A stretch of 64,000 nucleotides of DNA from Amphiura filiformis (lineage: Eukaryota; Echinodermata; Ophiuroidea; Amphilepidida; Amphiuridae): contig NW_027305510.1 of the NCBI RefSeq assembly GCF_039555335.1, forward strand, positions 496,001 through 560,000. The letters are read 5' to 3'. Shown one piece after another: positions 3,513 through 57,595 of this stretch; positions within the stretch are counted from its first letter, which is position 1; each line of letters starts with the position of its first letter. The notes under the pieces are model-generated. The model was not told where the DNA came from, did no database searches, and saw only the letters and a list, made by a program, of their open reading frames with translations. Both the position numbers and the translations under genes were made by a program.

Positions 3513-4150
3513 CCCAAGAATCCTTGACAACAAATCAAAGGTAGGTATGCCGACATTTTCCAGATTTTATAGGAACGGGTCACATATTCATAATAAGCAA
3601 TACCTACAAACCTGGCCAAAATGGTTGGAACACTTTGATACGGGTACTTCTAATATGCCCCCATTCCTCCCGGTCAATGTTGCCAGTTGTTTATTGGTTA
3701 TGTACCATAGAGACACTCAACATTTGTTGGTAGGGAAGGGAGGGCTGTAATAGCAGGAAACGGTTCAGACGTTACATCAAAGAAAGTTTTAAATTTCAGT
3801 ATGTCAAGGGTTTAAAACAATCCCACTTTTACACAAATGTTCCATCTACTTACGACCCGGATTGTAGTTTCAATTAAAGCAATATTATAACATTTTCAAA
3901 CAAAATAGATTAGCATTTCTTTGCCATAAAATATTAGCTTTTACTGTCAGATATATCCCCTTTTATTTTTGAGCCGAACAACTACGGCAAAGCAAAGAAA
4001 ATTGGAATTTACTGCCAGCGCACATGTCGCCAATACGTACCACTCCTTCGGCCATGTTGTGGTACGACCCTTTGTTGTGTATAGCACCGTCCCACACGCC
4101 GTGACGTACTGTTAGTCCAGGAGCAAGATCCCACAGGGGGCCTAAATAAG
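3513..4150. other. Non-coding stretch left of the foldback element
   Basis: I see no gene, RNA or repeat that I can support here. The short frames present lack splice-site or family support. Confidence 0.4.
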
Positions 4151-4309
4151 GACTTGGTTCACCCTCCACTACATACAAGGTTTGACACCATAGGTAGTTA
4201 GTATGGACCCTCTAGATCACTGCTAGGTAGGTAGTGGACTCAAATTGTGGTATCACTTTTTTTTTACAGGTCATTTTATGTATGGACGTATAATCGCATA
4301 AAATCACCA

Positions 4310-6720
4310 AAAATAGGACAAAATTAAGGGGTAGGGGAGATATAAATTCCCATAACTCAACTTTTACTCGTGATTTTGAATTCATTTTGGTATCAATATG
4401 TAGCTAAATGATTTTCCTAACTTTCTAGTATTATTTTTAAACAAAAACAGGTTTCATTTGAGCATATTTGGAAGTATATAGTCCATAAATGAGTGGTAAT
4501 CTGATTTTTAAAACCATATGTGTAAAGTTTGACATTGGCCTCAAATCTCACAACTATACCACTTTATATTTTCAAAATTGATTCAGTTTCCATTTTAATT
4601 TTTTAATTTAAATTTTAATGTTTAATTTTGTTTTTAATGTTAAGCATATCAAGGGAAACATTATTGTAACAGTTCCAATCATTATAATATGTATGAGTTC
4701 GTTGGGGTGTCTGTGGGACGAGGTGTGTGTGTGTGTGGGGGGGGGGGTGCTGGGTGTACATAGGGTATGTGTGGGGGTGAGGGGATGAATGTGTGTGTAC
4801 ATGTCTTAATATGTCACTTCACTGCACCAACTTCCATTTAGAAAATCCGTTAAGTTTCCATTGATGTGAATATTTATGTGTAGGACGTGAGTAACCATTG
4901 GGAAAAAGACAAAAAAACTGTTAAAAAAACCCAAAAAAACCCAACAAAAACTGATGTTGATTTCCCTCGTATATCAGCATAACATAGAAAAATATTAAGG
5001 GGTAAGGGAAAATAAATCATCAGAACTCAATATTTTACTCATGATATTGACTTCATCTTGGTATTAATTCTATTCAATTCAATTTAATATGTATATCTAA
5101 TTAATTGTTCTAACTTTTTTGTATTATTTTAAAGCAAAGCGACCATTAGTTGTCAGGTAGATACACAGAAACTGTGAGAAAAGAGTACGTTTTCTATGTC
5201 TAACAGCGTAAATATGACAATATTAAGGGGTAGGGAAATATAAACTGCCATAACTCAACTTTTACTCATTAAAATGAATTCATCTTGGTATCAAAATGTA
5301 TCTAAGTGATTGTTCTAACTTTCTAGTATCATTTTAAAGCAAAGCAACCATTAGTTGTCAGACAGATATACAGAAACTGTGAGGAAAAGGTAACTTTTCT
5401 ATGTCTAACAGCGTGAAGATGACAATATTACGGGGTAGGGGAAATGTAAACTGTCATAACTCAACTTTTACTAATGAAAATGAATTCATCTTGGTATCAA
5501 AATATATCCAAGTTATTGGTCTAGCTTTCTAGTATTATCTTAAAGCAAAGCGACCATTATTTGTCAGGTAGATATACAGAAACTGTGAGGAAAAGGTAAA
5601 TTTTCTATGTCTAACAGCGTAAAATGACAATATTAAGGGGTAGGGGAAATTTATAACTGCCATAACTCAACTTTTACTCATGAAAATGAATTCATCTTGG
5701 TATCAAAATGTATCTAAGTGATTGTTCTAATTTTCTAGTATTATTTTAAAGCAAAGCGACCATTATTTGTCAGGTAGATACACAGTATTTGTGAGGAAAA
5801 GGTAACTATTCTATGTCTAACAGCATAAATAAATATGACAATATTAAGGGGTAGGGGAAATATAAACTGCCACAACTCAACTTTTACTCATGAAAATGAA
5901 TTCATCTTGGTATCATATCAAAATATATCCAAGTGATTGGTCTAGCTTTCTAGTATTGTTTTAAAGCAAAGCGACCATTATTTGTCAGAAACTGAGGAAA
6001 AGGTAATTTTTCTATGTCTAACAGCGTAAAATGACAATATTAAGGGGTAGGGGAAATATATAACTGCCATAAATCAACTTTTACTCATGAAAATGAATTC
6101 ATCTTGGTATCAAAATGTATCTGATTGGCTGTTCTAACTTTCTATAAACAAAGCGATCATTAGTTGTCAGGTAGATACACAGAAACTGTCAGAAGAAGTC
6201 ATTTTCTATATCTAGCAGCGTAATAGACCGTTCACAAACACTTGTAAGGGGAGGGGCCTGATGCAAAAAAATTTCATCGCAAAATATTCTTTCGAGCCCC
6301 CCCTTTACATACCTCAAAAATTGTAGGGCCCCTTTTGACATGAAAATTATGGGTCAACCCCATAGAAAATCATATAAACTCAATTTTTCCAGGAAAATTT
6401 TTGATCATTTTTTTCAGGCCCCCCTTAGGAGGGTCAAAAATTTCAGACACCCCCCTTTTGCATCAGGCCCCCCTTACAAGTGTTTGTGAACGGTCCCTAA
6501 ATATGACAATATCAAGGTAGGGGAAATATAAACTCCCATAACTCAACTTTTACTCTTGATAATGAATTGATCGAACGTTCTGGTATCATTAGTTGTTATG
6601 TAGAAGCAAAGGAAATGTGAGAAAAAACTTCCATGTGTAACAGTGTCAAATATGATAATATTAAGGGTAGGGGAAATATTACCATAACTCAACTTTGGCT
6701 GCATTAACTGTGAAGGGGAA
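4310..6720 (-). repeat. Left-arm tandem units (~205 bp), inverted relative to right arm
   Basis: The motif AAGGGGTAGGGGAAATATAA or a close variant recurs at about 4326, 4997, 5225, 5430, 5635, 5845, 6042 and 6660. Each is followed by ACTCAACTTTTACTCATGA, ATGAATTCATCTTGGTATCA and a TCTAACAGCGTAAA segment. These are reverse complements of the right-arm units. They are more diverged from one another than the right-arm units, and one is interrupted by a MITE at 6224-6497. Confidence 0.85.
6224..6497. mobile_element. MITE inserted in a left-arm unit, TAA duplication
   Basis: Ends are GACCGTTCACAAACACTTGT and its inverse, with AAGGGG/CCCCTT next to them. TAA flanks both sides (6221-6223 and 6498-6500). 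Removing the element plus one TAA restores GCGTAAATATGACAAT, exactly the sequence found at the same place in a neighbouring unit (near 5210). This proves the target duplication is TAA. A related copy lies at 31823-32102. TWA duplications suggest PIF/Harbinger ancestry (inference). Confidence 0.85.
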
Positions 6721-6879
6721 CACAGGAATACAAATCGTTGCACCAAAATTTGAATGTAGTATACGATTGAGGTTTCTTACGTTAATTGGTGCAATTGGAC
6801 CATTTTAAAAATTTGACCTTTATTTATGATATTGATATATTCGACGTTATAACCCCTGAACTAAGCTTCGTAGAACTAT

Positions 6880-7562
6880 GACAATTCGTCGGCTGTATTC
6901 CATAGTGGCGTATAGTGATTTTTGGTCATTTTTTTGAAAATTGGCACATATGTCTTTAATGATGTTCTCTTTCATTTTTCTAAGTCTCATCAGTCATAAT
7001 TAGCTAATTAATTAGTAATTGATTAATTAAATGTGGCGTATAGTTACAAAGTGACATTTTCGTATTCCATAGTGGCGTATCGACCATACGCCACTTTTTA
7101 TACACATTTTATAATTATGAAATATCGGCAAAATGAAAAACATCGTATGTCATAGTGGCGTACGCGTATCGGACCTATACGCCACTATGGAATACGATGT
7201 TTTTCATTTTGCCGATATTTCATAATTATAAAATGTGTATAAAAAGTGGCGTATGGTCGATACGCCACTATGGAATACGAAAAAGGTTAGGGTATTGCGT
7301 TTTGTTCGTTTTCCATAGTGACGTATAGTTTTATTGTCAGTTTGCCAGCAAAAGTATGTATTTATATCTTTTGAAAAATATATAACAATAAAATCTATTT
7401 AGTTTACTACAGAAATTTCACATCATTTACAAAATATAATGAATGTCTGATTTACACAACTCGATTTTAAATTGGCATTTCTTCAAACCCGATTTTCTCG
7501 AAAAGTTGTTTATTCGCGGCGCCCCACTATACGCCACTATGGAATACGGACGACGAATTGTC
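6880..7562. mobile_element. 683 bp palindromic MITE at the foldback apex
   Basis: Ends are GACAATTCGTCG and its exact inverse, followed inward by GTATTCCATAGTGGCGTATA or its inverse. The motif CCATAGTGGCGTAT or its inverse recurs about eight times, including at ~6900, 7065, 7190, 7265, 7310 and 7530. An inner near-perfect palindrome occupies 7059-7281. Non-coding; no clear target duplication. Confidence 0.8.
7059..7281. repeat. Near-perfect palindrome, ~105 bp arms
   Basis: The arms run from about 7059 to 7162 and from about 7177 to 7281 around a ~13 bp centre containing CGCGTATCGG. I find only a two-base mismatch (GTCATAG versus TTCCATAG) over roughly 105 bases. Such arms can extrude as a cruciform and are prone to deletion in cloning and misassembly. 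Confidence 0.85.
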
Positions 7563-7669
7563 TTTTTTTAAATTCTTAGCGATGAGAGGAACAATTTGAG
7601 ATTACAACATTACAACATGATAGGATAATTTTTTAGTATTGGCCCCATTATGACCTTCAACCCCTCGTG

Positions 7670-10600
7670 GGAAACTTAATTGCGTTTAAAATAATGCCAG
7701 AAAATGAGAACAATCAAATAGCTACATATTGATGCCAAAATGGAATTCATTTTCGTCAGTGAAACTTGTGTTTTGGTGATTTGTATGTCCCTTACCCTTA
7801 ATATTGTCATATTTTACGCTGTTAGACATTGAATATTAACATTTTCATACATTTTATGTCTATCTACCTGACAACTAATGAATTTTAAGTTGCTTTTAAA
7901 ATAATACTAGAAAGTTAGAACTATCAAATAGCTACATATTGATACCAAAATGAATTCATTTTCATCAGTAAAACTTGAGTTTTGGTGATTTGTATGTCTC
8001 CTTACCCCTTAATATTGTCATATTTTACGGTGTTAGACATTGAATATTAACATTTTCATACATTTTATGTCTATCTACCGGACAACTAATGGCTTAATTG
8101 CTTTTAAAATAATACTAGAAAGTTAGAACTATCAAATAGCTACATATTGATACCAAAATGGAATTCATTTTCGTCAGTGAAACCTGTGTTTTGGTGATTT
8201 GTATGTCCCCTTACCCCTTAATATTGTCATATTTTACGCTGTTAGACATTGAATATTAACATTTTCATACATTTTATGTCTATCTACCGGACAACTAATG
8301 GCTTAATTGCTTTTAAAATAATACTAGAAGGTTAGACCTATCAAATAGCTACATATTGATACCAAAATGAATTCATTTTCATCAGTAAAACTTGAGTTTG
8401 GGTGATTTGTATGTCCCCTTACCCCTTAATATTGTCATATTTTACGCTGTTAGACATTGAATATTAACATTTTTATACATTTTATGTCTATCTACCGGAC
8501 AACTAATGGCTTAATTGCTTTTAAAATAATACTAGAAGGTTAGACCTATCAAATAGCTACATATTGATACCAAAATGAATTCATTTTCATCAGTAAAACT
8601 TGAGTTTTGGTGATTTGTATGTCCCCTTACCCCTTAATATTGTCATATTTTACGGTGTTAGACATTGAATATTAACATTTTCATACATTTTATGTCTATC
8701 TACCGGACAACTAATGGCTTAATTGCTTTTAAAATAATACTAGAAAGTTAGAACTATCAAATAGCTACATATTGATACCAAAATGGAATTCATTTTCGTC
8801 AGTGAAACCTGTGTTTTGGTGATTTGTATGTCCCTTACCCCTTAATATTGTCATATTTTACGCTGTTAGACATTGAATATTAACATTTTCATACATTTTA
8901 TGTCTATCTACCGGACAACTAATGGCTTAATTGCTTTTAAAATAATACTAGAAGGTTAGACCTATCAAATAGCTACATATTGATACCAAAATGAATTCAT
9001 TTTCATCAGTAAAACTTGAGTTTGGGTGATTTGTATGTCCCCTTACCCCTTAATATTGTCATATTTTACGCTGTTAGACATTGAATATTAACATTTTTAT
9101 ACATTTTATGTCTATCTACCGGACAACTAATGGCTTAATTGCTTTTAAAATAATACTAGAAGTTTAGACCTATCAAATAGCTACATATTGATACCAAAAT
9201 GAATTCATTTTCATCAGTAAAACTTGAGTTTTGGTGATTTGTATGTCCCCTTACCCCTTAATATTGTCATATTTTACGGTGTTAGACATTGAATATTAAC
9301 ATTTTCATACATTTTATGTCTATCTACCGGACAACTAATGAATTTTAAGTTGCTTTTAAAATAATACTAGAAAGTTAGAACTATCAAATAGCTACATATT
9401 GATACTAAAATGGAATTAATTTTCGTCAGTGAAACCTGTGTTTTGGTGATTTGTATGTCCCCTTACCCCTTAATATTTTCATATTTTACGCTGTTAGACA
9501 TTGAATATTAACATTTTCATACATTTTATGTCTATCTACCGGACAACTAATGGCTTAATTGCTTTTAAAATAATACTAGAAGGTTAGAACTATCAAATAG
9601 CTACATATTGATACCAAAATGAATTCATTTTCATCAGTAAAACTTGAGTTTTGGTGATTTGTATGTCCCTTACCCTTAATATTGTCATATTTTACGCTGT
9701 TAGACATTGAATATTAACATTTTCATACATTTTATGTCTATCTACCGGACAACTAATGGCTTAATTGCTTTTAAAATAATACTAGAAGGTTAGACCTATC
9801 AAATAGCTACATATTGATACCAAAATGAATTCATTTTCATCAGTAAAACTTGAGTTTGGGTGATTTGTATGTCCCTTACCCCTTAATATTGTCATATTTT
9901 ACGCTGTTAGACATTGAATATTAACATTTTCATACATTTTATGTCTATCTACCGGACAACTAATGAATTTTAAGTTGCTTTTAAAATAATACTAGAAAGT
10001 TAGAACTATCAAATAGCTACATATTGATACCAAAATGGAATTAATTTTCGTCAGTGAAACCTGTGTTTTGGTGATTTGTATGTCCCCTTACCCCTTAATA
10101 TTGTCATATTTTACGCTGTTAGACATTGAATATTAACATTTTCATACATTTTATGTCTATCTACCGGACAACTAATGAATTTTAAGTTACTTTTAAAATA
10201 ATACTATCAAATAGCTACATATTGATACCAAAATGGAATTAATTTTCGTCAGTGAAACCTGTGTTTTGGTGATTTGTATCTCCCCTTACCCCTTAATATT
10301 GTCATATTTTACGCTGTTAGACATTGAATATTAACATTTTCATACATTTTATGTCTATCTACCGGACAACTAATGGCTTAATTGCTTTTAAAATAATACT
10401 AGAAGGTTAGACCTATCAAATAGCTACATATTGATACCAAAATGAATTAATTTTCATCAGTAAAACTTGAGTTTGGGTGATTTGTATGTCCCTTACCCCT
10501 TAATATTGTCATATTTTACGCTGTTAGACATTGAATATTAACATTTTCATACATTTTATGTCTATCTACCGGACAACTAATGAATTTTAAGTTGCTTTTA

Positions 10601-13600
10601 AAATAATACTAGAAGGTTAGAACTATCAAATAGCTACATATTGATACCAAAATGAATTCATTTTCATCAGTAAAACTTGAGTTTTGGTGATTTGTATGTC
10701 CCCTTACCCCTTAATATTGTCATATTTTACGCTGTTAGACATTGAATATTAACATTTTCATACATTTTATGTCTATCTACCGGACAACTAATGGCTTAAT
10801 TGCTTTTAAAATAATACTAGAAGGTTAGACCTATCAAATAGCTACATATTGATACCAAAATGAATTCATTTTCATCAGTAAAACTTGAGTTTGGGTGATT
10901 TGTATGTCCCTTACCCCTTAATATTGTCATATTTTACGCTGTTAGACATTGAATATTAACATTTTCATACATTTTATGTCTATCTACCGGACAACTAATG
11001 AATTTTAAGTTACTTTTAAAATAATACTAGAAAGTTAGAACTATTGAATGGCTACAAGTTGTATACAAAATGTAATCATTTTCATCAGTAAGAACTTTAT
11101 TTTGGTGATTTATAAGGTCCCTTACCCCTTAATATTGTCATATTTTACGCTGTTAGACATTGAATATTAACATTTTCATACATTTTATGTCTATCTACCG
11201 GACAACTAATGGCTTAATTGCTTTTAAAATAATACTAGAAGGTTAGAACTATCAAATAGCTACATATTGATACCAAAATGAATTCATTTTCATCAGTAAA
11301 ACTTGAGTTTTGGTGATTTGTATGTCCCCTTACCCCTTAATATTTCATATTTTACGCTGTTAGACATTGAATATTAACATTTTCATACATTTTATGTCTA
11401 TCTACCGGACAACTAATGGCTTAATTGCTTTTAAAATAATACTAGAAGGTTAGAACTATCAAATAGCTACATATTGATACCAAAATGAATTCATTTTCAT
11501 CAGTAAAACTTGAGTTTTGGTGATTTGTATGTCCCCTTACCCTTAATATTGTCATATTTTACGCTGTTAGACATTGAATATTAACATTTTCATACATTTT
11601 ATGTCTATCTACCGGACAACTAATGGCTTAATTGCTTTTAAAATAATACTAGAAGGTTAGAACTATCAAATAGCTACATATTGATACCAAAATGAATTCA
11701 TTTTCATCAGTAAAACTTGAGTTTGGGTGATTTGTATGTCCCTTACCCTTAATATTGTCATATTTTACGCTGTTAGACATTGAATATTAACATTTTCATA
11801 CATTTTATGTCTATCTACCGGACAACTAATGAATTTTAAGTTGCTTTTAAAATAATACTAGAAAGTTAGAACTATCAAATAGCTACATATTGATACCAAA
11901 ATGGAATTAATTTTCGTCAGTGAAACCTGTGTTTTGGTGATTTGTATGTCCCCTTACCCCTTAATATTGTCATATTTTACGCTGTTAGACATTGAATATT
12001 AACATTTTCATACATTTTATGTCTATCTACCGGACAACTAATGGCTTAATTGCTTTTAAAATAATACTAGAAGCTTAGACCTTTCAAATATCTACATATT
12101 GATACCAAAATGAATTAATTTTCATCAGTAAAACTTGAGTTTGGGTGATTTGTATGTCCCTTACCCCTTAATATTGTCATATTTTACGCTGTTAGACATT
12201 GAATATTAACATTTTCATACATTTTATGTCTATCTACCGGACAACTAATGAATTTTAAGTTGCTTTTAAAATAATACTAGAAGGTTAGAACTATCAAATA
12301 GCTACATATTGATACCAAAATGAATTCATTTTCATCAGTAAAACTTGAGTTTTGGTGATTTGTATGTCCCCTACCCCTTAATATTGTCATATTTTACGCT
12401 GTTAGACATTGAATATTAACATTTTTCTCATATTGTATGTTTAACTACCTGATAACTAATGGTTTAATTGTTAATATTTTTAAAATAATGCCAGAAAATG
12501 AGAACACTCAAATAGCTACATATTGATACCAAAATGGAATTCATTTTCGTCAGTGAAACTTGTGTTTTGGTGATTTGTATGTCCCTTACCCCTTAATATT
12601 GTCATATTTTACGCTGTTAGACATTGAATATTAACATGTTCGTACATTTTATGTCTATCTACCTCACAACTAATGGTTTAATTGCTTTTAAATAATACTA
12701 GAATAATACGAACAATTAACTACATATTGTTACCAAAATGAATTCATTTTCATCAGTAAAACTTGAGTTTTGGTGATTTGAATGTCCCCTACACCTTAAT
12801 ATTGTCATATTTTACGGTACTACACATGAAAAATTGACATTTTTTTAACATTTTATGTCTTTCCAGCTAACAATTAATGGTTATTTTACTTTAAAAGATT
12901 ACAACAACCAAATAGCTATATATTAATGCCAAAATGAATGAATTATAATGAATAAATGTCGAGTTACGTTGGTTTGTACGTCCCCTAACCTTTAATATTG
13001 TCAGATTTTACGCTGTTACACATTGGAAACTTAACATTTTTATCATATTTTATGTCTATCTTATGGTTTTTCTGTTAAAAATAATACTGGAAAGTTAGAA
13101 CAATCAATTAGCTACATGTTGATACCAAAATGAATTCATTATTATGAGTAAAGGTTGAGTTATGGTGGTTTTATTTCCCCTACCCCTTAATAATGCCATA
13201 TTTGACATGGTTATACATAGAAAAGTAACCTTTTCTCACATTTTATGGCTATCTACCTGACAATTAATGTTTGCTTTGCTTTCAAATAATACTAACACGT
13301 TTGAACAATCAACTAGCTACATATTAATTCCAAAAAGAATTCATTATCATGAGTTGAAGTTGAGTTATGATGGTTTATATTTCCCCTACCCCTTAATATT
13401 GTTACACACGCTGCTACATGTGGAAAAGTAACTATTTTTTTACATTTTCAGTCTATTTTCCTGACAAACAGCGGTTGATCTCACCCCACACATATAAATA
13501 TTCAAAATATTACATGAATGGCAACTTAACAAACAAATTTTGTTAATATAACTTATATAGTTCAGCCGAGTGACATATTAAAACATGTAAAACACCCCAA

Positions 13601-13990
13601 CCCTGAACCCTATACACACCCCGCACCCACCCCCACATACCCACACACACCTACCCCAAACCCACACAACACAAACCAACATGCAAGCAAACATGCACAT
13701 ACATAAATATTTGAACCAGAACATCAAAGTTTGCCTAGATATGCTTGATATTAAAAACAAAATTAAACACCCTGCGCATTGTTGTAAAAAATCTGATTTT
13801 TCACTAGTGTATGGACTGGCCACTTCCAATCATGATCAAATGAAACCTAGGTTTGCTTTCAAATAATACTAGGCAGTTAGAACAATCAATTAGCTACATA
13901 TTCATACCAAAATAAATTCATTATTATGAGTAAAAGTTGAGTTATGAGAGTTTATATTTCCCCTACCCCTTAATTTTGTCCTATTTTTGG
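7670..13990 (+). repeat. Right-arm satellite, ~208 bp unit, >21 copies
   Basis: CCGGACAACTAATG marks successive units from 8078 to 12237 at ~208 bp intervals (21 marked sites). Diverged units flank these on both sides to about 7670 and 13990. Each unit contains AATAATACTAGAA, AGCTACATATTGATACCAAA, GTATGTCCCCTTACCCCTTA, ATTGTCATATTTTACGCTGT and TAGACATTGAATATTAACAT. Variants occur at fixed places: GGCTT or GAATTTT, GTTAGAAC or GTTAGACC, CATTTTCATCAG or CATTTTCGTCAG. No open frame runs through the array. It is not a CRISPR array because there are no unique spacers. Confidence 0.95.
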
Positions 13991-14224
13991 TGATTTTATG
14001 CGATTATACGTCCATACATAAAAAAAAAAAAAAAAAAAAGTGATACCACAATTTGAGTCCACTACCTACCTAGCAGTGATCTAGAGGGTCCATACTAACT
14101 ACCTATGGTGTCAAACCTTGTATGTAGTGGAGGGTGAACGAAGTCATTTTTTTGAGGTTGCTGCTCCTGTACTATGTGTGTTATGAACATCGTGTATGCG
14201 TTCGACTAATAATTCCATCGTAAT

Positions 14225-14252
14225 AATAAAGCGCCGGTTCCGGCGTTTTATT
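14225..14252. repeat. Short hairpin AATAAAGCGCCGG / CCGGCGTTTTATT
   Basis: A 13-base stem with one mismatch and a two-base loop (TT). It lies between the foldback element and the zinc-finger gene. It may be the edge of an unrecognised repeat; nothing shows that it is a terminator. Confidence 0.5.
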
Positions 14253-15153: not shown

Positions 15154-18100
15154 TTATGATGACTTATGTTTCTTCTTCTTATGTTCTTTGTGCTTCTCAC
15201 AATTGGCAGCTCTACGTCCACAATGACATAGATATGGTTTCGAACCTGAATGATGCATTTTTTCATGTATACGCAAAGTCTCCCTCCTTGCATACGTCGC
15301 TTTACAGAACTCGCATTCATACCTGACACCTCGATGCACGCACTGCTCATGTCGCTTTAACAGTGATGACCATTTGAACGCGCTAGAACATCCGGGGTAT
15401 TTGCATTTATACGGTCTTTCCGACGAGTGGCATCTTTCATGGTTAGTTAGGCTACCCGATTCAATAAACCTCATACCGCATGTGAGACATTTAAATGGTT
15501 TCACTCCCGTGTGTATTCTCTCATGACATGTTAAAGAGTACCTCTCGGCGAATCGTTTAGGACAGTGTTTACATTTATGTGGTTTTTCGCCGGTGTGCGT
15601 ACGTATATGTCGCTCAAGACCGGCCCGAACCGCGAAACCTTTATTACAATATTCACAGCGAAGTAGCTGCCGTTTGTCATGAGTCTTCATATGAATACTT
15701 AAATTACTGCGCGATACAAAGCTTTTATCACATTTGGAACACTGGTATATTTTCTTCTTTTGTTTCATATGCAGGTGTCTCTTCATCTCAGGAGTCAGTT
15801 TCTGGGACGTACTTCTGGTATTGGAATTACGAGATTGACGATCTACTTTTTTGCTCGCTTTTAAGCGGCTGGATTTTCGTGACAAGTCGTGATCTCTACC
15901 AAAGTCTTCAAATGGTGATAATGGTGGTGGTTCTTCTTCGGATGTGTACGAGTCTAGAGACGATGCTATATCATCGGGTGGATGGGCTTCAGATATTCGC
16001 GGTGCGTCTCTACGTTTGGTCTGACGATGAGTCTCCAAGTTGGATCTCCTTCGCCGCAGTGGATCTCTATGTTTAGTTTCGTGGTGTGTTTCTTCGTTGG
16101 GTCTCTCTCGCGGTGGGTCTTTATGTTGAGTCTCGTGATGGGTATCAACACTTTGTTTCTCTCGTGGTGGCTCTCTACGCTTATCTTGTGTCGTATCATT
16201 ATAGAAACTATGCGCAGTTTTAGTCCACTGACTGTCAGATGAATCTAAACTTTGAAGAAGTGATTCAAAAGATGACAAACGTTCTTCTTCAACGATAGGT
16301 TGCTGTGATTCCTTAGGGAGGAGCGTCTTTCCGCGTCGATTTCGACGCAGCACATCAGCAATTAGTCTAGCATTCCTTTGAATGCTTTCCAATCGGCTTA
16401 AACTCGTCTTAAAATCCCGATCTTCAGTAGAGAGGCGCGAGGTCTTTCGGAATTCGTCATGTAACTGGACATTGGCATTCCTTTCGATGCTTTCCAACCG
16501 GTTTAAGCTCGTTCTGTAATCCCGATTTTCAGTCGATAGACGCGAGGTCTTTTGATATCGGTCACTTATCTGGATAGGCGATGCTCTGATGGTATCATCG
16601 TCGCTAACGTCATGCTGATTATTAGTAAACGAGTTGGTTTTTCTTTGGGATTGGGCCGTTTTAGATTGTAAAGTTGACTTCAATCTTGAAAACATCTCAT
16701 TCCGTTTATCTCGTTCTGATGAGGAAAAGTGTGTCTGTTGTTCTGAGGTGATTGTTTCCTTCACTTGCTTACCACATGTATGTTTCACTACTATGTTAAC
16801 ATTGGTTTGGGTGACGAAATTCTCAAACACTGATCGTGTTTCACTGATTTCCGTGTCGACTGAGTCGACACTGCGTTGTCTGTGCAGAGAGCGAATACCC
16901 GGATCGGCAGCAATTGCATCCTCATCGGTTGCATATTGATGTGTTAACATTTCAGACCGGCATGTCGGAGGCCTGGGTTTACTATACAACATATCAGTAT
17001 TCCGAGAAATATTTCTAGTGATGTCGCTTTGTTGTGTAGATTTTTCTACAACCGTCGAAGAATTTCTATCGGAAAGCTTCTCATGATGGGCTTTGTTAGG
17101 ATGTTTGCTAATCAAATCTGCTTCATCTGAATCGACATCCCTTTCGAATACATATCTTTCACGATTTTGCCTAATCGCCTGTCCACCATCTTTACTTGAT
17201 ATTGTTCCTCGCGAAGTCATTTTTGAAACCGGTTGGGTGCTACTTTTAACTGGAGCTATAGTTTTGCGGCTTCCTGTCTTCTGTTGTTTCGGAGCTTTGC
17301 TTGTGCCGTCCTCATCCGAGGAAATAGCCTCATCCGATGAGGCGTCATCAAATGCATGAACGTGTTCCTCGTGGATTTTTAAATTAGAACTATCCGGGAA
17401 ACCCTTCCCGCAACGGGGAACACTTAAACGGTCGTAACCCAATGTGCACTGTCTTCTCATGTCTACTACGGTGTGATTTATGTACGAAACGCTTACCGCA
17501 AATTGCGCACGCAAACGGCCTTTCTTTAGTATGCGTTCTGCGATGTTTCGCCACTGAGCTTGGACTTTCGAATTTCTTTCCGCAATATTCGCACGGATGA
17601 ACCCTAGGTCTTGGTCCTGCAGGTTTTGATGGTACGTTCTTGTTCTCTCCCGTGTGACCCTTCTTATGACGTGATAAATGACCTGATGAATGGAATGCTT
17701 CCCCACAGTGACATATATATGGACGTTCACCCGTGTGGTATCTTCGATGACCTACTAACATTCCTTGTAATCGAAATCGCTTATCACAATATTCACATTT
17801 ATACGGTTTCTCGCCTGTATGGTATCGCTCATGAGCTTTTATATTGCGGGTATCCGGAAACCCTTTTCCGCAAATACGACATCGATACGGTAACTTTCCG
17901 GTATGTCTATTCATGTGGTCCCTTAACTTGGATTTATACTGGAAGCATTTTCCGCACACTTTACACTCGTACTTTTTCGGAAGTGAATGTCGTTTTACGT
18001 GACTTTTAAATATTTTTCAAAAGCGAAGTGCTTGCCACATATTGAACAGGAGTATTTCCGTCGTTTTGTCTTGAAGCAAGGAACATTGTGCATATATTTT

Positions 18101-21100
18101 TTGGTCTTTCTCTTCTTTTCTAATTCTATCAACTCTTCTTTTGTCAGGCGTCTCATGTTGGTACGATACTTGTTGGCCTCAGGCTCATTTGCAAGATTCC
18201 TGGCTATTTTCTTGTAATATTCATCTTTCAAATTGTTTTTTGTTTGACCTAAAGATTTGTGCGGTTGCTGTTGCGGCGTTAAAGCTGGTATCTTGTCTGT
18301 TTGCTTCCCGTTTGTTCCATGCATTATATTATCGTGGTTTTCGGTGGGGTTTTTCAATGTTGTACTTGAGGAAGAAGACCTCACCTCGTTCGTATAATCA
18401 CTCAATGCCTCGTCTTCTGATTCATTTTCACTTTTCACTTTGACGACGATTTTGTCTTTGTTGGCAACCAACTTGGGCATTTCATCACCAGAAGATGCGT
18501 TCTCTTCACTTTCCGAATCGTCATCTATCTTGTAGCTTTCATCGCTACTGTGATCTTCTTCGTCAGCAATGTCCCTTTCGTCATCATCGTCAATTGCTTC
18601 TACTGACGCTTGCTTCTTTCCATTACCACTATCATTTCTCTTCCGAAGAGACCATCGAGTGGCAAATCTGCCAAGTGACATACTCGAGTCTTGTGTATCG
18701 GTTTCCCTGTGTTCAGTGTGGTGTACATCGCCTTTCCCATTATTACTTTTATCACCATGACGACCACCATCGTCATCGTTGTCGTAATTATCTATATTTG
18801 CATCTGTCCTCGATTCCTTTCTGTGTTTATATTTTTCTACAGGTTTGAGATTAATAGACCATAGTTTGTCAAGTTTAGTCAAAGAGACGGTCAACTTTGG
18901 AGTGCTCTTGCTTAAGTTCCTCTCTGAAATGTTTGCAACTTTTTCTTCTTTTCTTAGATCTTTGTCCTTACTACCACGGTTTGTAATCACAGGTTTCTCC
19001 GCTACTTCCCTTGCGGTCTTTGTGCTTGGCTTATTTTGATTGCTCTGGTTTAAGTTGGTAGCTGGTGTGTTCTTTGCGACCTGTTTCTCCTTTCTTGGAA
19101 CATTGTCCTTGCTGCCACGTTTCTCCACTACCTCCAAAGTGGTCTGTGTTCTTGGCTTATTTTGATTGCTCTGGTTTAAGTTGGTGGCTGATGTGTCCTT
19201 TGGGGCCTGTTTCTCCTTTCTTGGAACATTGTCCTTGCTGCCACGTTTCTCCGCTACCTCCAAAGTGGTCTGTGCTCTTGGCTTATTTTGATTGCCTTTG
19301 TTTAACTTGGTGCATGTGTTGTCCTTTTGAATCATTTTGTCTTTTCTTTGAACTTTGTCCTTATTACTTCGACTACTACTGCCGGGTTTCTCTGCCGCTA
19401 CTTCCCCGGTGGCATTTACTGTTGACTTATGTTGATTTCTCTTTTTTACGGAAGCATCCTTTTGAAGTTTTTTCTCTTTTCTTGAAACTTTGTCCTTGCT
19501 ATTACGACAACTGGTCGCGGATGTGTCTACTACTTTCCCGGTGGCCCTTGCTCTTGGCTTATTGTTAATACTCTTGTCTAACGTGTTCACTGACGTGTCA
19601 TTTTGTAACTGTTTCTCTTTTCTTTTCTCTTTGCCCTTACTACTACTTTTCTTTGTTACATCCCAGGTGGTCTTTGCTTTTGGTTTAATTCGTAAAGACC
19701 ATCTAGTCCCGAACTTTTCAACGGATGTATCAGAGTTTTGATTAAGACTGTTGACGTCACTTGAATCAGTTCCTGAAGAAGATTTGTCAACTGCGCATGC
19801 GTTCTTTCCTACATCCTCCAGTCCCTTAGTCAATCTACTGTAGTATCCAGCTTTCGGTCTTTTTCTATTTCCGACAGGCGGCAACTCGTTAAGATACCTG
19901 TCTTCCCAGTCGCCATGGTTACCATCCCCCGATTTCTTCCTTCCTACTCTCCCGGTTCCGGTCCCTTTAGGCAATCTTTTCTTGCGTGTTTTCGGAGTAT
20001 TTGTAATGGAAGGTTGTTCATCATCATGTAAAGTTTCTACAATGTTCTGAGTACTTTGGTTTGAAATGTAGGATTGAGATAGTTGTGGATATATATGTAA
20101 TTTTACCAACTCAACGCGAAATGACGATTCATTCCGTACTATATTTCTAACAGCGTCTTGTGTAATTCGGCTTTCCGTAATATCCGCGTCTGCAGTTCCT
20201 GTTTCCGAATGGTCCGATGGCCTGTGACTACCAGGTGTAACAAGGCTAGATTCCTGTCCTTGAATATATTCAACTTTTATGGGAACCACTGGTTGAGGAA
20301 TACGTACACTATTATCATTTAGATCAGGTCCTGTATTTTCAGCAGACGATGTGTCAGAAGCATGCCCTAAGAACTTCCTTGATAGCAAGTCCCCGATTGT
20401 GTAATTGTCATTAGCGACACGTGAGTCTTGCGAAGGTGACTCTTCTGAATCGATCTCTTTCTTTATTTCAACTTCATTGTTTTCTTCAACGAATGTTGAT
20501 GTCTGCGTGACAGGTGGATTGTTTTCAGGAAGGTTTGATGAGGTTGATGGAGATGCATCATATCCAACCTGTTCTTCTTTAACCTCAGTTATCGCGCCCT
20601 CATCGGTTCCTGATGTATCTGTGGTTTTCTTGGAAGACGTAGCATTAGAAGACGTATCATCGCTGTTGTTGTCAGGATCGATTGGGGGAACTTGAAGATG
20701 AGTTACTATTTGTTGGTCAATTGCAATATTTTCAGTCAATTCCGACGTGTTAATGGCTAAAGATACACCACCTGCTGTTACTTCAGCTTCACTATGTCCT
20801 CGATCGTGTGCTAGATTTTCACGAGGTAGTCTCTGTTCTTCTTCTTCATCTGGTATGCCCTCTTCAATAATTCCGTACCTGTCGGAAATAAGCTTTGGAG
20901 ATAAACTACCTGCTGACACTTCGGCTTCATTATGTCCTCGATCATTTATTAGATTTTCACGAAGTATTCTCCCATCTTCTTCTTTATCTTTTATGCTCTC
21001 GTCAACAATTCTGAATGTATCTGTGACTTGCTTTGAAGATTCATTGTCTGAAGTAGTCTTGCTGTTACCTGTATTGTTTTCAGAAAGTCTTTCTCTGTTT

Positions 21101-22202
21101 TTATGCGTATCCATTACACTCTCTCTGTTTTCATGCGTATCCACTAGACACTCTCTGTTTTCATGAGTATCCACTACACTATCTATGTCTTCATGCGTAT
21201 CCACTACGCTCTCTCTGTCTTCATGCGTATCCACTACACTCTCTCTGTCTTCATGAGTGTCCATTACACACACCTCTACAACTTTTGATGTGTTATCTTT
21301 ATGTAGAACTTCTAAGGTTTTTGAGGTGCTATGGCTTTCCCAATCTTTTGATGGACGTACTGTAGTTCTGTTCTGTCCATCTGATAAAGTTGTCGAGGAT
21401 GCAATACTTTCACGATTTTGTGATGGACGTATAGTTCTTTTCTGTCCATCCGATAAAGTTTTTGAGGATTTATTGCTGTCACGATCTTTTGATTGACGTG
21501 CTGCAGTTCTTTTCTGTCCATTTAAATGACCTCCTTTATACCAATGTCTCTCGTACCTTCGTTCATGACTTCGTAGATGTCGATGGTATCGCCAAAACCG
21601 ATGGAAAAATCGACGATGACAGTATTTGCAGGTCTTAGGGCGTAGTGTTGCAGATTTACTCTTGGGTTGGTCTTTAGGAGAGTCGGTGACTTCATGTGTT
21701 TGATTGGTTTTGGCGGAAGATGGTTTAGGAGAGCCAATTGGAGAATCGGTGACTACGTGTGTTTGCTTGGTTTTGGCGGAAGATGGTTTAGGAGAGCCAA
21801 TTGCCGAGTCGATGACTTCATGTGTTTGCTTGGTTTTGACAGACGATGGTTTAGGAGAGCCAATTGTAAAGTCGGTGACTTCGTGTGTTTGCTTGGTTTT
21901 GGCGGAAGATGGTTTAGAAGAGCCAATTGGAGAGTGTGTGTTTTCGTGTGCTTGACTGGTTTTGGCGGAAGATGGTTTAGGAGAGCCAATTGCTGAGTCG
22001 ATGACTTCGTGTGTTTGATTGGTTTTGGTGGAAGATGTTTCAGGAGAGTCAATTGCTGAGTTGGTGACTTCATGCGTTTGCTTGGTTTTGGTGGCGGGTG
22101 GTTTAGGGGAGCCAGTTGCAGAGTGTGTAACTTCGTGTGTTTGATTAGTTTTGGCAGGCAATGGTTCGTTTGTCTCTTGAGCGGTTGTAGCTAACTGATC
22201 TC
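15154..22202 (-). CDS. C2H2 zinc-finger protein, terminal exon (two homopolymer frame breaks)
   Basis: Exon 2 of a two-exon gene. It starts after the acceptor TTATATACTTGCAG at 22203 and completes the split Arg codon of exon 1. In order (residues of the joined ~2,424-residue protein): eight 21-residue repeats around KTNQTHEV and GSPKPSSA (~93-260); a finger C267-X2-C270-X13-H284-X3-H288; six 10-residue DTHEDRESVV-type repeats (~385-445); acidic/Ser-rich linkers; about seven ~41-residue Lys-rich repeats with VPRKEKQ and NLNQSNQNKP (~910-1160); eight C2H2 fingers (~1457-1690); a charged linker with further repeats; and seven C-terminal fingers (~2220-2410), the last degenerate. The frame breaks at 18004-18007 (A4, A5 expected) and again at 17415-17418 (C4, C3 expected); both fall inside fingers and cancel. 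Tandem fingers with TGEKPY-type linkers imply a nuclear DNA- or RNA-binding protein. The family is not recognised; targets are unknown. Confidence 0.9.
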
Positions 22203-30726: not shown

Positions 30727-31210
30727 GGGTGGTGCAATAATTATGTGTACCCCCGGGGTGGTGAATTATAGGGGGGGGGGGGAAAGATTTTTTGGCAGGC
30801 CAAAAGGGGGCAAGCATTTTTGGCAGGTCAAAGGGGGTCAAGCGATTTTAGGCAAGTCAAAGGGGGGGCAAGCGATTTTTGGCACAGATATTTTGGGCAC
30901 CGTTTCTATATTATGCCCTAAAAAGGTGTAGGAAAACGATAGGAACACATTCAAATATGCAAAATTTCCTGCTCGCTGCGCTCGCATTATATGGTAAGAC
31001 AATTTAAGGTTGTAAATTCAGGTTCCCCAAATCTTGCATTGGTAAGGGGGGGCAAAGATTTTTTGGCACATCAAAGGGGGGGCAAAGGTTTTTGGCACGT
31101 CAAAGGGGCCAAAAATGTTTTGGCACGGCCAGTGGGGGAGCAAGCGATTTTTGGCAGACCATTTTGAGAATTCACCACCCCGGGGGTACACATAATTATT
31201 GCACCACCCC
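30727..31210. mobile_element. MITE with GGGTGGTGCAATAATTATG ends, TTA duplication
   Basis: About 42 bp inverted ends, GGGTGGTGCAATAATTATGT then ACCCCCGGGGTGGTGAATT. TTA flanks both ends. The interior has repeated GGGGGCAAGCGATTTTTGGC-like units and GCTCGCTGCGCTCGC. A partial inverted copy lies at 56015-56298. Confidence 0.85.
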
Positions 31211-31501: not shown

Positions 31502-31822
31502 GCCCACCTTGACAAAATGAAAAGCCCGGACAAAACCAGCTAACACTTTCTTTTGATCTTTGATCTATTTCTGTTATATTATATCATCAAAAGTAAAATC
31601 ATCTTTATTTATTCTATTTTAAGTTAACTCTATACTATTTTCCTTTCAGTTTCTTATTATATTCTTTTCAATCTTTTCTTTTATAGTGCTTCTGTGGCCC
31701 TTTTCTTTTTCCCTTTATAATGTGCTTTGCGTAGAACTATAAGCTGACAACCAAGTTATTTTTGTTAATTCAGATGCTACATGTATATTTAAATAATATT
31801 TTCTGTCTGTCATGTTGTATTA

Positions 31823-32102
31823 GGGACCGTTCACAAACACTTGTAAGGGGGGCCTGATGCAAAAAGGGGGCCCTGAAATTTTTTGACCCTCCTAGGGGGG
31901 GCCCTGAAAAAATGACCACAAATTTTCCTGGAAAAATTGAGTTTATATGCTTTTCTATGGGGTTGACCCATAATTTTCATGTCAAAAAGGGGGGCCTGGA
32001 ATTTTCGAGGTCTGTAAAGGGGGGAGGGCCCTAAAAATTTTCGCGATAACATTTTTTTGCATCAGGGCCTCCCCCCCCTTACAAGTGTTTGTGAACGGTC
32101 CC
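31823..32102. mobile_element. MITE with GGGACCGTTCACAAACACTT ends, TTA duplication
   Basis: GGGACCGTTCACAAACACTT and its exact inverse, with TTA at 31820-31822 and 32103-32105. 280 bp. Same family as the insertion at 6224. Confidence 0.9.
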
Positions 32103-44739: not shown

Positions 44740-45175
44740 AACATTTCAAATATTGGGAAATCCTCAATACTCTGTTCTGGATGCAATAACGTCTCAATCT
44801 GTCTTTATTTCATCATGAGACTTTTTCTTTCTCTCATTGCAGAATCAAAAAGTAAAATGAAGTTCAAAGATATTGGGGATTAAACATACCGTATTGGGGA
44901 ATCCCCAATACTTTGCTCTGAATGCAATATTATGTCTCTTCCGTCTCTAATTTCATCAGACATTTTCTTTCTCATTGCATGATCACAAGATGTTCAAACA
45001 TATTGGGAAATCCCCAATAATAGTTGGTTGGTGCAATAAAAACTTTGCTCTGAATGCAATATTATGTCTCTTCCGTCTCTAATTTCATCAGACATTTTCT
45101 TTCTCATTGCATGATCACAAGATGTTCAAACATATTGGGAAATCCCCAATAATAGTTGGTTGGTGCAATAAAAAA
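44740..45175. repeat. Three tandem ~132 bp units
   Basis: The last two units (44909-45040 and 45041-45172) are nearly identical, with ACTTTGCTCTGAATGCAATA, TCATCAGACATTTTC, GATCACAAGATGTTC and ATTGGGAAATCCCCAATA. The first (about 44745-44885) is diverged. The age difference shows a recent duplication added to an older one. Confidence 0.9.
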
Positions 45176-49206: not shown

Positions 49207-49378
49207 TTATAAGACATTCTTGAACTCATTCAAGCTTAGTGAATCCAAATTGGCACAGAGATTAAAAGGAAGTCTATTCCATGAAGTGGCAGCTCTATAA
49301 TGAAATGTTCTCTGCCCAGAAGATAATTTCCACCTTGGAACAACCAATTTGTTATGTGATTGACTTGAGTGTTCTTAG
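49207..49378 (-). CDS. LINE ORF2, C-terminal tail in shifted frame
   Basis: The alternative frame reads HNKLVVPRWKLSSGQRTF, then HYRAATSWNRLPF, and ends KNVL-stop at 49207. The block around FxYRAxxxWNxLP is the conserved C-terminus of CR1/L2 reverse transcriptase proteins, so this is the true tail. The frame used upstream gives a nonsensical tail. The break lies around CATTCTAAGAACAC (~49375-49385). Confidence 0.8.
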
Positions 49379-50648
49379 AATGAGTAGAGGAGGTGAAAGT
49401 GAATTGAGATGACAAATAATGTGGAGCAATGTTCTTTAGACATTTAAAAACTAAAATAAGTAACTGATTCTCCCACCTACTATCAAGTTTAACCCATTCC
49501 AGGTCTTTCATCATTTTGTCCACTGGTGTTCTTATGTCTGCAGAAAGTAAAATACGGGCAAGTCGATTCTGTAGAATCTGAAGCTCATTTTTGTGACAAG
49601 CACTAAAATTTGACCAAACAGAGCTGCAGTAGTCAAAGTGAGGAAAGACAAGGGCTTGGGCAAGTGTTTTAACTGATCTAAAAGGAAGATACTTTTTTAC
49701 TCTACAAATAACACCAATACGTTTTGATACATTTGAAGAAAGATAACTAACATGCTCATCCCAAGTAAGATGTGGATCAAATGTGACTCCTAAATACTTA
49801 TACTTATCAACTCTTTCAATGCTCACACTTTCATAAATGAGGGATATGTTTTTATAATTAATTAAAGCTTGCCTTGTTCCAAACAACATCAACTTAGTTT
49901 TCTTAGTATTTAGAGTTAAATGATTAGACTGAAACCAGTCAGCAATTTTCTTTAAATTTGCATTAAGATTATTTTCCAGAACAGTGGGGTCAGATGAGCT
50001 TACTAAAATAGTAGTATCATCTGCATACATCACACACTTACAACTACTACTTACGGCCTCTGGTAATGAATTCACAAATATTATAAATAATAAGGGTCCC
50101 AATATTGAGCCCTGTTGAACACCAATATCAATATTTTTTTTTTTTGATAGAGAAGAATTTATATTTACAGCTTGAGATCTACCATTAAGATAAGATCGAA
50201 ACCAAATAAGAGCTTTACCTTTGATACCATATGAGTTAAGTTTTTGAATAAGAAGGTCATGGTTAACAGTATCAAAGGCCTTCTTTAAATCTAAAAAGAT
50301 TGAACCTGTAACTTTGCCATTATTCATGTTAATTAATATATGATCTGTCACATCTGATAGAGTTGTATTAGTACTATGATTACGTCTAAAGCCTGATTGA
50401 CATGAATTTAAAATATTGTTACATGTGAGATAATTATACAGTTGATCATGTACAGCACGTTCTAAGATCTTAGAAATAATAGGTAAAACTGAGATAGGTC
50501 TATAGTTGCTGACATCGCTTTTGTCACCCGCCTTGTATATAGGTGTAACCTTTGCCTTTTTCCATTCATTAGGAAAAGTGGATGTGAACATAGAAAGATT
50601 ACAAATATATGCAAGGGGATGACAAATAATCGGTGCAGAAAGTTTCAA
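49236..50648 (-). CDS. LINE ORF2, reverse transcriptase domain
   Basis: 470 codons as read from the first in-frame M; the frame is open upstream to ~50740. Motifs in order: PIYKAGDKSDVSNYRPISVL (~36-55), SGFRRNHST (~85-93), FLDLKKAFDTVNH (118-130, catalytic Asp), GVQQGSILGPLLF (176-188), and YADD (208-211, catalytic Asp pair), then LTLNTKKTKLMLFG. This is a non-LTR reverse transcriptase of the CR1/L2 kind. The thumb and connection region continue to about residue 425; a further frame break near 49380 diverts the last ~45 residues. Confidence 0.95.
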   Translation of the reverse strand: MKLSAPIICHPLAYICNLSMFTSTFPNEWKKAKVTPIYKAGDKSDVSNYRPISVLPIISKILERAVHDQLYNYLTCNNILNSCQSGFRRNHSTNTTLSDVTDHILINMNNGKVTGSIFLDLKKAFDTVNHDLLIQKLNSYGIKGKALIWFRSYLNGRSQAVNINSSLSKKKNIDIGVQQGSILGPLLFIIFVNSLPEAVSSSCKCVMYADDTTILVSSSDPTVLENNLNANLKKIADWFQSNHLTLNTKKTKLMLFGTRQALINYKNISLIYESVSIERVDKYKYLGVTFDPHLTWDEHVSYLSSNVSKRIGVICRVKKYLPFRSVKTLAQALVFPHFDYCSSVWSNFSACHKNELQILQNRLARILLSADIRTPVDKMMKDLEWVKLDSRWENQLLILVFKCLKNIAPHYLSSQFTFTSSTHSKNTQVNHITNWLFQGGNYLLGREHFIIELPLHGIDFLLISVPIWIH

Positions 50649-50728
50649 AAGTTTAGTACTAACATTACAAATACCTGCAGACTTATTATTAGAGAAATTA
50701 CAAATCTGTTTAAAAACAAATTCAGGTT

Positions 50729-52123
50729 CTACAAAATCAAATGCAAATCATCATGCTCATAATTCACAGAATTATTGTTTCTATAATTACTACACTTAAA
50801 TTTATCAGCCAAGGTATTTCCAATAGACGTAAAATAATCATTAAACTGATTAGCAGTTTCTTTATCATTACACGTAATGCCATCATTAGTTTGAACATTA
50901 GTAACATTGGAAACATTTTTTGGAATTAATTTTCTTATAGTACCCCAAAGCTTCTTTGAATCATTTACATTACTATTAATTGCATCTGTACAGTAGGTTT
51001 TTTTCAAAGTCTTATTTAGTTTATTTACTTGATTGCGAAGTTGTCTTGCCATTTTCCAATCCTGAGAGTCATTAGTTTTGTGAGCTTTTCTGAAAAAATG
51101 GTCCCGATCTTTAGAAAGTTTAATATACTCACTTGTAATCCAATCAGGATACAAGCCTTTGACCCTCTTTTCTTTCACTGGACAATGTAAATTGCACGCT
51201 TGATCAAACATATCTTGGAAATTATTATAGGCATTATCTACATCATCACATTCTAGTACCTTATCCCAATTAGTCTGCTTAATTGTTTCCACAAAATTAT
51301 GCTCATTGAAATTCTTGAAACACCTAGCTTTAATAATCTTTGGAGGAACCTTAACCTTTTTGTTTTTTTTTATAATATATATCAATGAATGGTCAGAAAG
51401 TCCTAAACTATGTACACCTGAACATGATACTTTGTCCTGTTTTGATACAAATGCCAAGTCAATAATAGTTTTAGTAGACTCAGTGATTCTTGTAAAATCA
51501 TTAATTAATTGACAAAGGTTACTGTGTGTTGAAAGTTTCTTGATCTTACTTGCATTACATCGTTTATTTACATCAACATTAAAATCCCCAACAATAATAA
51601 CATCATCATAAAGAGAAGTAGTATTTTGAAAAAGTAAGTCTAATTTGTCCAAGTAATCTGCTGTTGAGTCAGGTGGGCGGTACACAGTGCCAAGTAGGAT
51701 AGGCTTGGTGTAGGGCAGGTTTAGCTCTATCCAGATTGCTTCAACATTACTTTGCAAATCAGACTTTTCTTTGAAAACAATACCATCTTTTATATAGCAT
51801 AAAATCCCACCACCATTTAAATCAAATCTGTCAAATCTACTAATATTGTAACCATTTATATGAACCTCACTATTGTCGATATCATTATTTAGCCATGTTT
51901 CAGTTAAGCATAAAATATCAACGTTATTTTCATCAAGTAAAATTCTAATATGATCAACTTTATTACGCAGACTTCTAATATTGACATGAGCTATTTTAAA
52001 ACCATTAGAAGTACAAAATTTATAATCAATAAAACCTTCATTGAATGGGAGCTCATTGTTGCACATTTTAGTAAAGCAATGGTTACAGATCCAAGAATCA
52101 TTGCTGTCACTGGAAGAATTCAT
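50729..52123 (-). CDS. LINE ORF2, AP-type endonuclease domain
   Basis: 464 codons in the frame that continues from the PHD-like finger. Residues ~43-260 carry the exonuclease-endonuclease-phosphatase motifs: AHVNIRSL (N48), LTETWL (E75), GTVYRPP (Y148), VGDFNVDV (D180, N182) and GLSDHSLI (D244, H245). All catalytic positions are present. A spacer precedes the reverse transcriptase. The frame stops at 50731 in GATTTTGTAG; a one-base shift there gives FDFVEPEFVFKQICNFS and joins the reverse transcriptase, so this stop is a frame break and not the natural end. Confidence 0.92.
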   Translation of the reverse strand: MNSSSDSNDSWICNHCFTKMCNNELPFNEGFIDYKFCTSNGFKIAHVNIRSLRNKVDHIRILLDENNVDILCLTETWLNNDIDNSEVHINGYNISRFDRFDLNGGGILCYIKDGIVFKEKSDLQSNVEAIWIELNLPYTKPILLGTVYRPPDSTADYLDKLDLLFQNTTSLYDDVIIVGDFNVDVNKRCNASKIKKLSTHSNLCQLINDFTRITESTKTIIDLAFVSKQDKVSCSGVHSLGLSDHSLIYIIKKNKKVKVPPKIIKARCFKNFNEHNFVETIKQTNWDKVLECDDVDNAYNNFQDMFDQACNLHCPVKEKRVKGLYPDWITSEYIKLSKDRDHFFRKAHKTNDSQDWKMARQLRNQVNKLNKTLKKTYCTDAINSNVNDSKKLWGTIRKLIPKNVSNVTNVQTNDGITCNDKETANQFNDYFTSIGNTLADKFKCSNYRNNNSVNYEHDDLHLIL

Positions 52124-52213
52124 ATCAGTGCATGATACATGGAAATCAAGGTTACAATTATTACATACAATATATTTACAGTTTTCAATTTTACAAGTAC
52201 ATTCACCACATTT
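52060..52213 (-). CDS. LINE ORF2, N-terminal PHD-like finger
   Basis: Reading into the endonuclease frame from upstream gives KCGECTCKIENC, YIVCNNCNLDFHVSC, then WICNHC: a C4-H-C3-like pattern typical of PHD fingers. It precedes the endonuclease. PHD fingers are known in CR1-like elements. The upstream segment (52214-52442) is open in another frame and ends at an A7 run (AAAAAAACTT), so the true ORF2 start may lie there beyond a further indel. Confidence 0.65.
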
Positions 52214-52402
52214 AATTAAGTTTTTTTGAAGATCTTTTCTTATTTACATTTTTATCCTTGGAGCATTTTTCACGTAATACTTTACAATCTAATGAATTAC
52301 CATATTGATTAAGTTTGGTATTCACATTTGAGCTTTCTGAATTACTAATACATACATTGTATCTAAGTTTGTTTTGATATGCTGCATTACCTTTGGGGAA
52401 CC

Positions 52403-57351: not shown

Positions 57352-57595
57352 TGCATTCTAAAAAGTGAATACCGTAATGTTAGTAATAAATGCCCTGGGT
57401 GCATTGCATTTTTCCAAAAGGGGCGTTTATTGAAGGTGGATTGTCTGACAGTGAAAAAAACAAATCGGGTCTAAAAAGTGAATACCGTAATGTTAGTAAT
57501 AAATGCCCTGGGTGCGTTGCATTTTTCCAAAAGGGGCGTTTATTGAAGGTGAATTGTCTGACAGTGAAAAAAACAAATCTGGTTAGATTTCCCGA
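57352..57595. repeat. Two tandem ~117 bp units
   Basis: CTAAAAAGTGAATACCGTAA, AAATGCCCTGGGTGC and GGGGCGTTTATTGAAGGTG repeat at ~57358 and ~57472 with a few substitutions. GGGGGCGTTTATTAGAAGGG near 57895-57915 is a related word. Confidence 0.85.

Follow-up and report, generated by a model that had tools for sequence, protein, structure and literature searches.

A probable foldback-type DNA element with unequal satellite arrays in its inverted arms in the brittle star Amphiura filiformis

Introduction

Can a mobile element carry a satellite in its own arms, and can a single copy preserve the order of events by which that satellite grew? The question is raised by a ~10 kb region within a window of 64 kb, the whole stretch of A. 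filiformis DNA analysed here, in which tandem arrays lie in opposite orientation around a palindrome. The original prediction, made from the sequence, saw in this region a transposon-like unit that would link mobile elements to satellite birth. That link is already in print for Tetris, a foldback element of Drosophila virilis reported to have seeded a satellite (PMC4079207), and in a review Tetris and a Xenopus MITE are counted among the elements whose terminal inverted repeats (TIRs) yielded satellites (PMC9659126). We examine what the arms are made of, how they came to differ, and which explanation accounts best for them.

Results

Overall architecture of the foldback

The window is AT-rich (28–44 % GC per kb) and eukaryote-like, and Rfam and tRNA scans over its 64 kb gave no matches. 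Inverted BLAST matches, the palindrome and a profile search confirmed the predicted foldback of ~10 kb with inverted, unequal arrays, the palindrome being centred near position 7170. From the outside inward, both sides present an end domain that includes a partial unit, a spacer with a GT/CA-rich patch and an array of ~205–208 bp units; less certainly, a degenerate inner domain is also part of this mirrored order. Since modules outside the arrays are mirrored too, the mirror involves more than a pair of arrays in opposite orientation.

BLAST comparison of the region with the window returned an inverted match of positions 4144–4509 with 14152–13787 (367 columns, 88.0 %, E = 1e-129), another of 4619–6223 with 13769–12184 (1685 columns, 70.6 %) and the self-palindrome at 7057–7283 (227 bp, 93.4 %). 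Exact inverted matching extends over at most 109 bp at the ends, 92 bp at the centre and 30 bp between the arrays. Neither arm is a copy of the other: spacers and arrays are only about 70–82 % identical.

The match may extend weakly outward to ~4114/14174 through a 13-base match with 12 identities, for which 28 of 1000 shuffles were as good with 150 bp flanks, 4 of 1000 with 60 bp flanks and 34 of 2000 in a second run. Beyond 4114–4157 and 14139–14174 there is no significant mirroring (219/300 shuffles as good). The similarity of the arms ends abruptly near these limits, not by degrees, and the true outer end is uncertain, lying between 4114 and 4157. Shuffles for the first run of the flank extension, for the resumption of the unit and for a motif common to end and unit kept base composition only; those for its second run, for the stretch beyond the limits and for the mirroring of spacers, GT/CA patches and inner domain kept dinucleotides as well.

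End domains and outer partial units

The left end domain (4157–4338, plus strand) is identical to its mirror on the right (13959–14139, minus strand) except in a T-rich tract: across these outer 182 bp the sole differences, six mismatches and one gap, all fall at 4266–4273. The 109 bp exact run pairs 4157–4265 with 14139–14031, and with the tract at 4257–4276 set aside the identity is 162/163 (100/101 on one side of it and 62/62 on the other). The inner ~28 bp of the end domain are already within the repeat unit. In the profile search, an outer partial unit occupies 4317–4446 on the left (plus strand, model positions 1–130) and 13848–13980 on the right (minus strand, model 1–133). Conservation drops where the end domain stops, the adjoining part of the partial unit (4339–4446) matching its mirror at 90/108 positions, against 162/163 for the end domain (Fisher p = 3e-7). 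These module identities allow free end gaps and trimming and are upper values; a 9/9 obtained for the poly-T tract is an artefact of this procedure. Outer end domain and unit had no motif in common (234/300 and 38/300 shuffles as good). That the ends stayed alike while the rest drifted would fit upkeep by selection or gene conversion.

Spacers

The left spacer (4447–4990, plus strand) contains a GT-rich patch at ~4690–4800 and has a decayed inner limit; the right one (13477–13847, minus strand) contains a CA-rich patch at ~13590–13700 and is flanked by unit positions 133 and 133. Aligned with each other, the spacers reach a score of 218 in inverted and of 41 in direct orientation. Outer spacer, GT/CA patch and inner spacer are each mirrored (0/300 shuffles as good), with upper-value identities between arms of 99/135 for the outer and 75/92 for the inner spacer. 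Ends, patches and units are thus mirrored about ~7.2 kb, as originally predicted, with the qualification that the patches exceed what composition yields only narrowly (score 80 against a shuffle maximum of 75, 0/300).

Directly inside the right spacer the unit resumes as a 69 bp piece (13408–13476, minus strand, model 133–200), with 0/500 shuffles as good. Because the right partial unit ends at ~133 and this piece resumes at 133, the spacer splits a unit at about position 133 of the model. In the left arm no resumption of the unit past the spacer was found (315/500 shuffles as good).

The arrays of ~205–208 bp units

The left array (plus strand) has seven units between 4991 and 6652: L1–L6 at 4991–6223, placed by profile search and unit alignment, and a shortened L7 which, with a stub at 6655–6701 (E = 1.6e-4), makes up the profile-search segment 6505–6701. 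The right array (minus strand) has 27 units running from 13402 to 7810, followed by an inner piece of ~135 bp (7808–7675). Its outermost units, R3–R1 (12808–13402), group with the left units in the tree; R27–R4 (7810–12807) are of a derived type according to identities and tree; and the inner piece corresponds to a partial unit, R28 (7675–7809 in the profile search, model 1–134). The ~7 left and more than 21 right units of the original prediction therefore stand as 7 and 27. Its view that the left units are more diverged also holds, the mean pairwise identity being 89.6 % among L2–L6, 96.0 % among R6–R27 and 78.6 % between these groups (gaps ignored; more than 40 shared positions required).

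In a midpoint-rooted tree of 37 units (34 different), from which the pieces 13476–13408 and 6655–6701 were excluded as they were from the unit alignment, a branch with support 99/97 separates R4–R28 from the seven left units, the two outer partial units and R1–R3. The two outer partial units cluster (91/73), and R5 pairs with R28 (100/97; 96.3 % identical), these two flanking the homogenised core on both sides; most of the inner branches among the left-side units have weak support. As R4–R28 form one clade opposite the left units, the outer partial units and R1–R3, the right arm expanded more recently, and tree and identities together support the predicted one-sided growth. Within the right array, stretches of 331, 304 and 298 bp recur exactly in direct orientation, with lags of 624, 1035 and 1866. 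A higher-order dimer structure, hinted at by a period of 418 bp, was rejected, the mean identity being flat (95.2–96.6 %) across lags 1–11.

Inner domain and central palindrome

The inner domain (6884–7563) consists of degenerate inverted arms, 6884–7056 and 7563–7284, around the central palindrome (7057–7283), whose arms are identical at 104 of 106 positions (98 %). The mirroring of the degenerate arms scores 67, above a shuffle maximum of 57 (0/300). The wider stretches 6702–7056 and 7284–7674 score 97 inverted and 70 direct, part of this match being accounted for by a motif present in both orientations, and between arrays and inner domain (6702–6883 against 7674–7564) the mirroring is not significant (43/300 shuffles). 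The likeness of the palindrome arms may reflect hairpin-mediated correction or a younger duplication.

The motif in question, the 22 bp CGTATTCCATAGTGGCGTATAG, occurs six times in 6894–7548 with 0–2 mismatches, three times per orientation and always in the foldback centre; a scan that allowed up to 4 mismatches found no copy in the rest of the window. Exact patterns for end, unit, MITE end and centre motif were also compared with viral contigs and matched 0, 0, 0 and 2 contigs, respectively. The two contigs with the centre motif are ~91 % alike across 6.4 kb, and the match in one of them, at 5531–5548 inside a 737 aa open frame, agrees with one centre-motif copy at 23/24 bases; we took these matches as due to chance.

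A nested insertion and other features of the window

Between L6 and L7 lies a MITE-like insertion of 274 bp (6224–6497), with TAA at 6221–6223 and at 6498–6500. A second copy (88 %) is found at 31820–32100; both are bordered by TAA and have the ends GGGACCGTTCACAAACACTTGTAAGG, and in an intact unit the sequence at the insertion point is GCGTAAATATGAC, matching the expected empty site. TAA duplications are typical for PIF/Harbinger MITEs. The right arm has no counterpart of the insertion, which suggests that it probably occurred after the arms had separated; loss from the right side would be the other way to the same pattern. A 17 bp stretch of the MITE end, compared with bacterial and archaeal genomes, matched 14 contigs from scattered bacteria, again taken as chance.

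Elsewhere in the window, LINE-like frames span ~4.9 kb on the minus strand (49236–54107), with Lipase_GDSL_2 (lipase-like), endonuclease and reverse transcriptase domains; we take them to resemble CR1/L2 elements. Long open frames, one with C2H2 zinc fingers, occupy 15154–22161 on the minus strand, and a 1388 aa frame among them is internally repetitive, with tandem repeats of 63, 69 and 30 bp (21092–22155). Smaller repeats are a 132 bp unit present twice in tandem with 100 % match (44910–45174), a 113 bp pair with 97 % match (57357–57583) and, at 30777–31126, two short arrays of 28–29 bp G-rich units of similar sequence.

Evidence on mobility

We searched for a target-site duplication with left ends at 4080–4174 and right starts at 14120–14229, covering lengths of at least 6 bp (6 bp exact, or 8 bp with at most one mismatch) with the true end of the element not fixed, and found none in register. 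The sole match was GTGTAT in TTGTGTAT and TCGTGTAT, 27–29 bases out of register. No transposase remnant was recognised in the ten short frames of the element, the frame scan giving one Pfam match below cut-off (AraC_binding, E = 0.028), and neither the ends nor the unit have a second copy elsewhere within the 64 kb window. The predicted transposon-like nature of the region therefore draws support from the foldback anatomy and none from an in-register duplication of at least 6 bp, coding remnants or further copies in the window; we infer its status as a mobile element from anatomy alone.

Discussion

The explanation that we favour, with a probability of about 0.7, is that the locus is a non-autonomous foldback-type DNA transposon carrying a satellite in its terminal inverted repeats. 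It has long TIRs with direct tandem repeats, whose number is unequal between the arms (7 against 27), as in foldback architecture. Each TIR would consist of an end domain of ~180 bp leading into a partial unit, a spacer with the GT patch, an array of ~205–208 bp units and, innermost, a domain that joins its inverted counterpart at the palindrome. The end domain would be the part recognised by a transposase supplied in trans. Since it continues into the first ~130 bp of the unit in both arms, the array was probably born by tandem duplication of the sequence adjoining the end domain; the overlap is directly visible, and the copying may have proceeded in that direction.

In the simplest history, both arms would have held short arrays of the older type and then diverged. 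As tree and identities show, a derived unit type multiplied in the right arm, with older units persisting at its outer edge; in this history the type would also have originated there and spread blockwise. The array likely grew by unequal exchange, judging from the multi-unit duplications, and the ends may owe their likeness to selection for transposition or to gene conversion. More tentatively, and as a possibility that we hold to be rather doubtful, the foldback was caught during satellite birth, with ends kept identical by selection for transposition while one arm alone expanded with derived units. Ends maintained in this way would imply that the lineage could still move until recently.

A second reading needs no transposon: a satellite-bearing segment would have been duplicated locally in inverted orientation, perhaps by fork switching close to the palindrome, and its outer ends later made alike by gene conversion. 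It agrees with the near-perfect central palindrome, the missing target-site duplication and the lack of a second copy in the window. We consider it unlikely, however, since similarity ends abruptly near 4114–4157 and 14139–14174, the best-kept part is the outermost 182 bp, as transposon ends should be, and the order of modules matches that given for Tetris (PMC4079207).

A chimeric foldback, its arms derived from different copies of one family and joined by recombination, would account for the divergence of the arms as well as for the lack of a target-site duplication, and the unit type does differ between arms. There is also precedent in Galileo, where 12 chimeric copies combine TIRs of different groups and have unmatched 7 bp flanks (PMC3573991). 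Here, however, the end domains are identical over 109 bp, the outer partial units cluster with each other (91/73), so that the ends do not look like those of different subfamilies, and R1–R3 cluster with the left units, all of which makes this origin quite improbable. The misassembly of two separate arrays in opposing orientation, named in the original prediction as a result that would speak against it, has very little in its favour: assembly is difficult across palindromes and long arrays, but an artificial inverted copy would be uniformly alike, whereas the uneven identity between these arms (longest exact match 30 bp between arrays against 109 bp and 92 bp) makes a simple inverted misassembly unlikely, the mirrored module order continues past the arrays, and the window contains no N.

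If the locus is a foldback-type transposon, which elements does it resemble most? Drosophila FB elements, foldbacks of the Mutator type, have repeats of tens of bp or less, and sea-urchin TU elements have long inverted arms with arm repeats of ~15 bp and 8 bp target-site duplications. Like TU elements, the locus lies in an animal genome and has tandem repeats in long inverted arms; it differs in its unit of ~205–208 bp, against ~15 bp for TU, and in that no duplication was found. A literature search on sea urchins and echinoderms found no paper dedicated to TU elements. The original prediction held FB and TU to be the nearest architecture, but two Drosophila elements are closer, having repeats of nearly equal length to ours: Tetris (PMC4079207) and Galileo F (PMC3573991).

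Tetris is described as a non-autonomous foldback made of a flanking domain, AT-rich repeats of ~220 bp in arrays of up to 66 copies and an inner domain, with 37 bp common to flanking domain and repeat and target-site duplications of 8–10 bp (PMC4079207). The order of modules is the same at our locus, the overlap between flanking domain and repeat being 37 bp in Tetris and ~130 bp here, and in both the repeats expand to satellite-like arrays. As Tetris is reported to have seeded a satellite, the connection between foldbacks and satellite birth is already published. Our locus differs in that no 8–10 bp duplication was found, that 27 units lie in one arm of one copy, and that the two arms resemble each other far more closely at their outer ends than elsewhere. 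Two of the four published Tetris primers (one per domain, TIR-220 and flanking; PMC4079207) had no match in the window at up to 3 mismatches.

Galileo F of D. mojavensis, of the P superfamily, has direct repeats of ~210 bp in long TIRs, unequal in number between the TIRs of one copy; there are two or three of them, and they are described as growing independently in each TIR (PMC3573991). In D. buzzatii, Galileo TIR repeats contain further transposase binding sites (PMC3688188). Compared by description, our locus shares ~210 bp TIR repeats that are unequal between arms and differs by its up to 27 units, against two or three, and by the 7 bp target-site duplications of Galileo F, none being found here. 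No coding remnant, such as one of a P-superfamily (THAP) transposase, was recognised in this copy. Tm1 of Meloidogyne, a Mutator-type foldback, has 13–15 bp repeats and duplications of 8–10 bp in 45 of 53 elements (PMC3169594). FB and Tm1 resemble our locus in their long composite inverted arms of tandem repeats of unequal length; Tm1 differs by its short repeats, against ~208 bp here, and by its 8–10 bp duplication, not found here. The frame scan detected no Mutator-type transposase in this copy.

The locus works in the manner of Tetris and Galileo; membership of any family is unproven, the target-site duplication that defines these elements having been looked for and not found. We consider it a probable new member of the foldback type with an architecture already known from Drosophila; it does not found a class of its own. 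The locus is a further probable case of satellite growth inside foldback-type terminal repeats, as in Tetris, and brings older and expanded states together in one copy, which lets the succession of events be followed within one locus. If the foldback was indeed caught during satellite birth, the left arm and the outermost right units would keep the earlier state, one locus thereby recording that order, and copies differing in arm length could show the array size at which the element stops moving.
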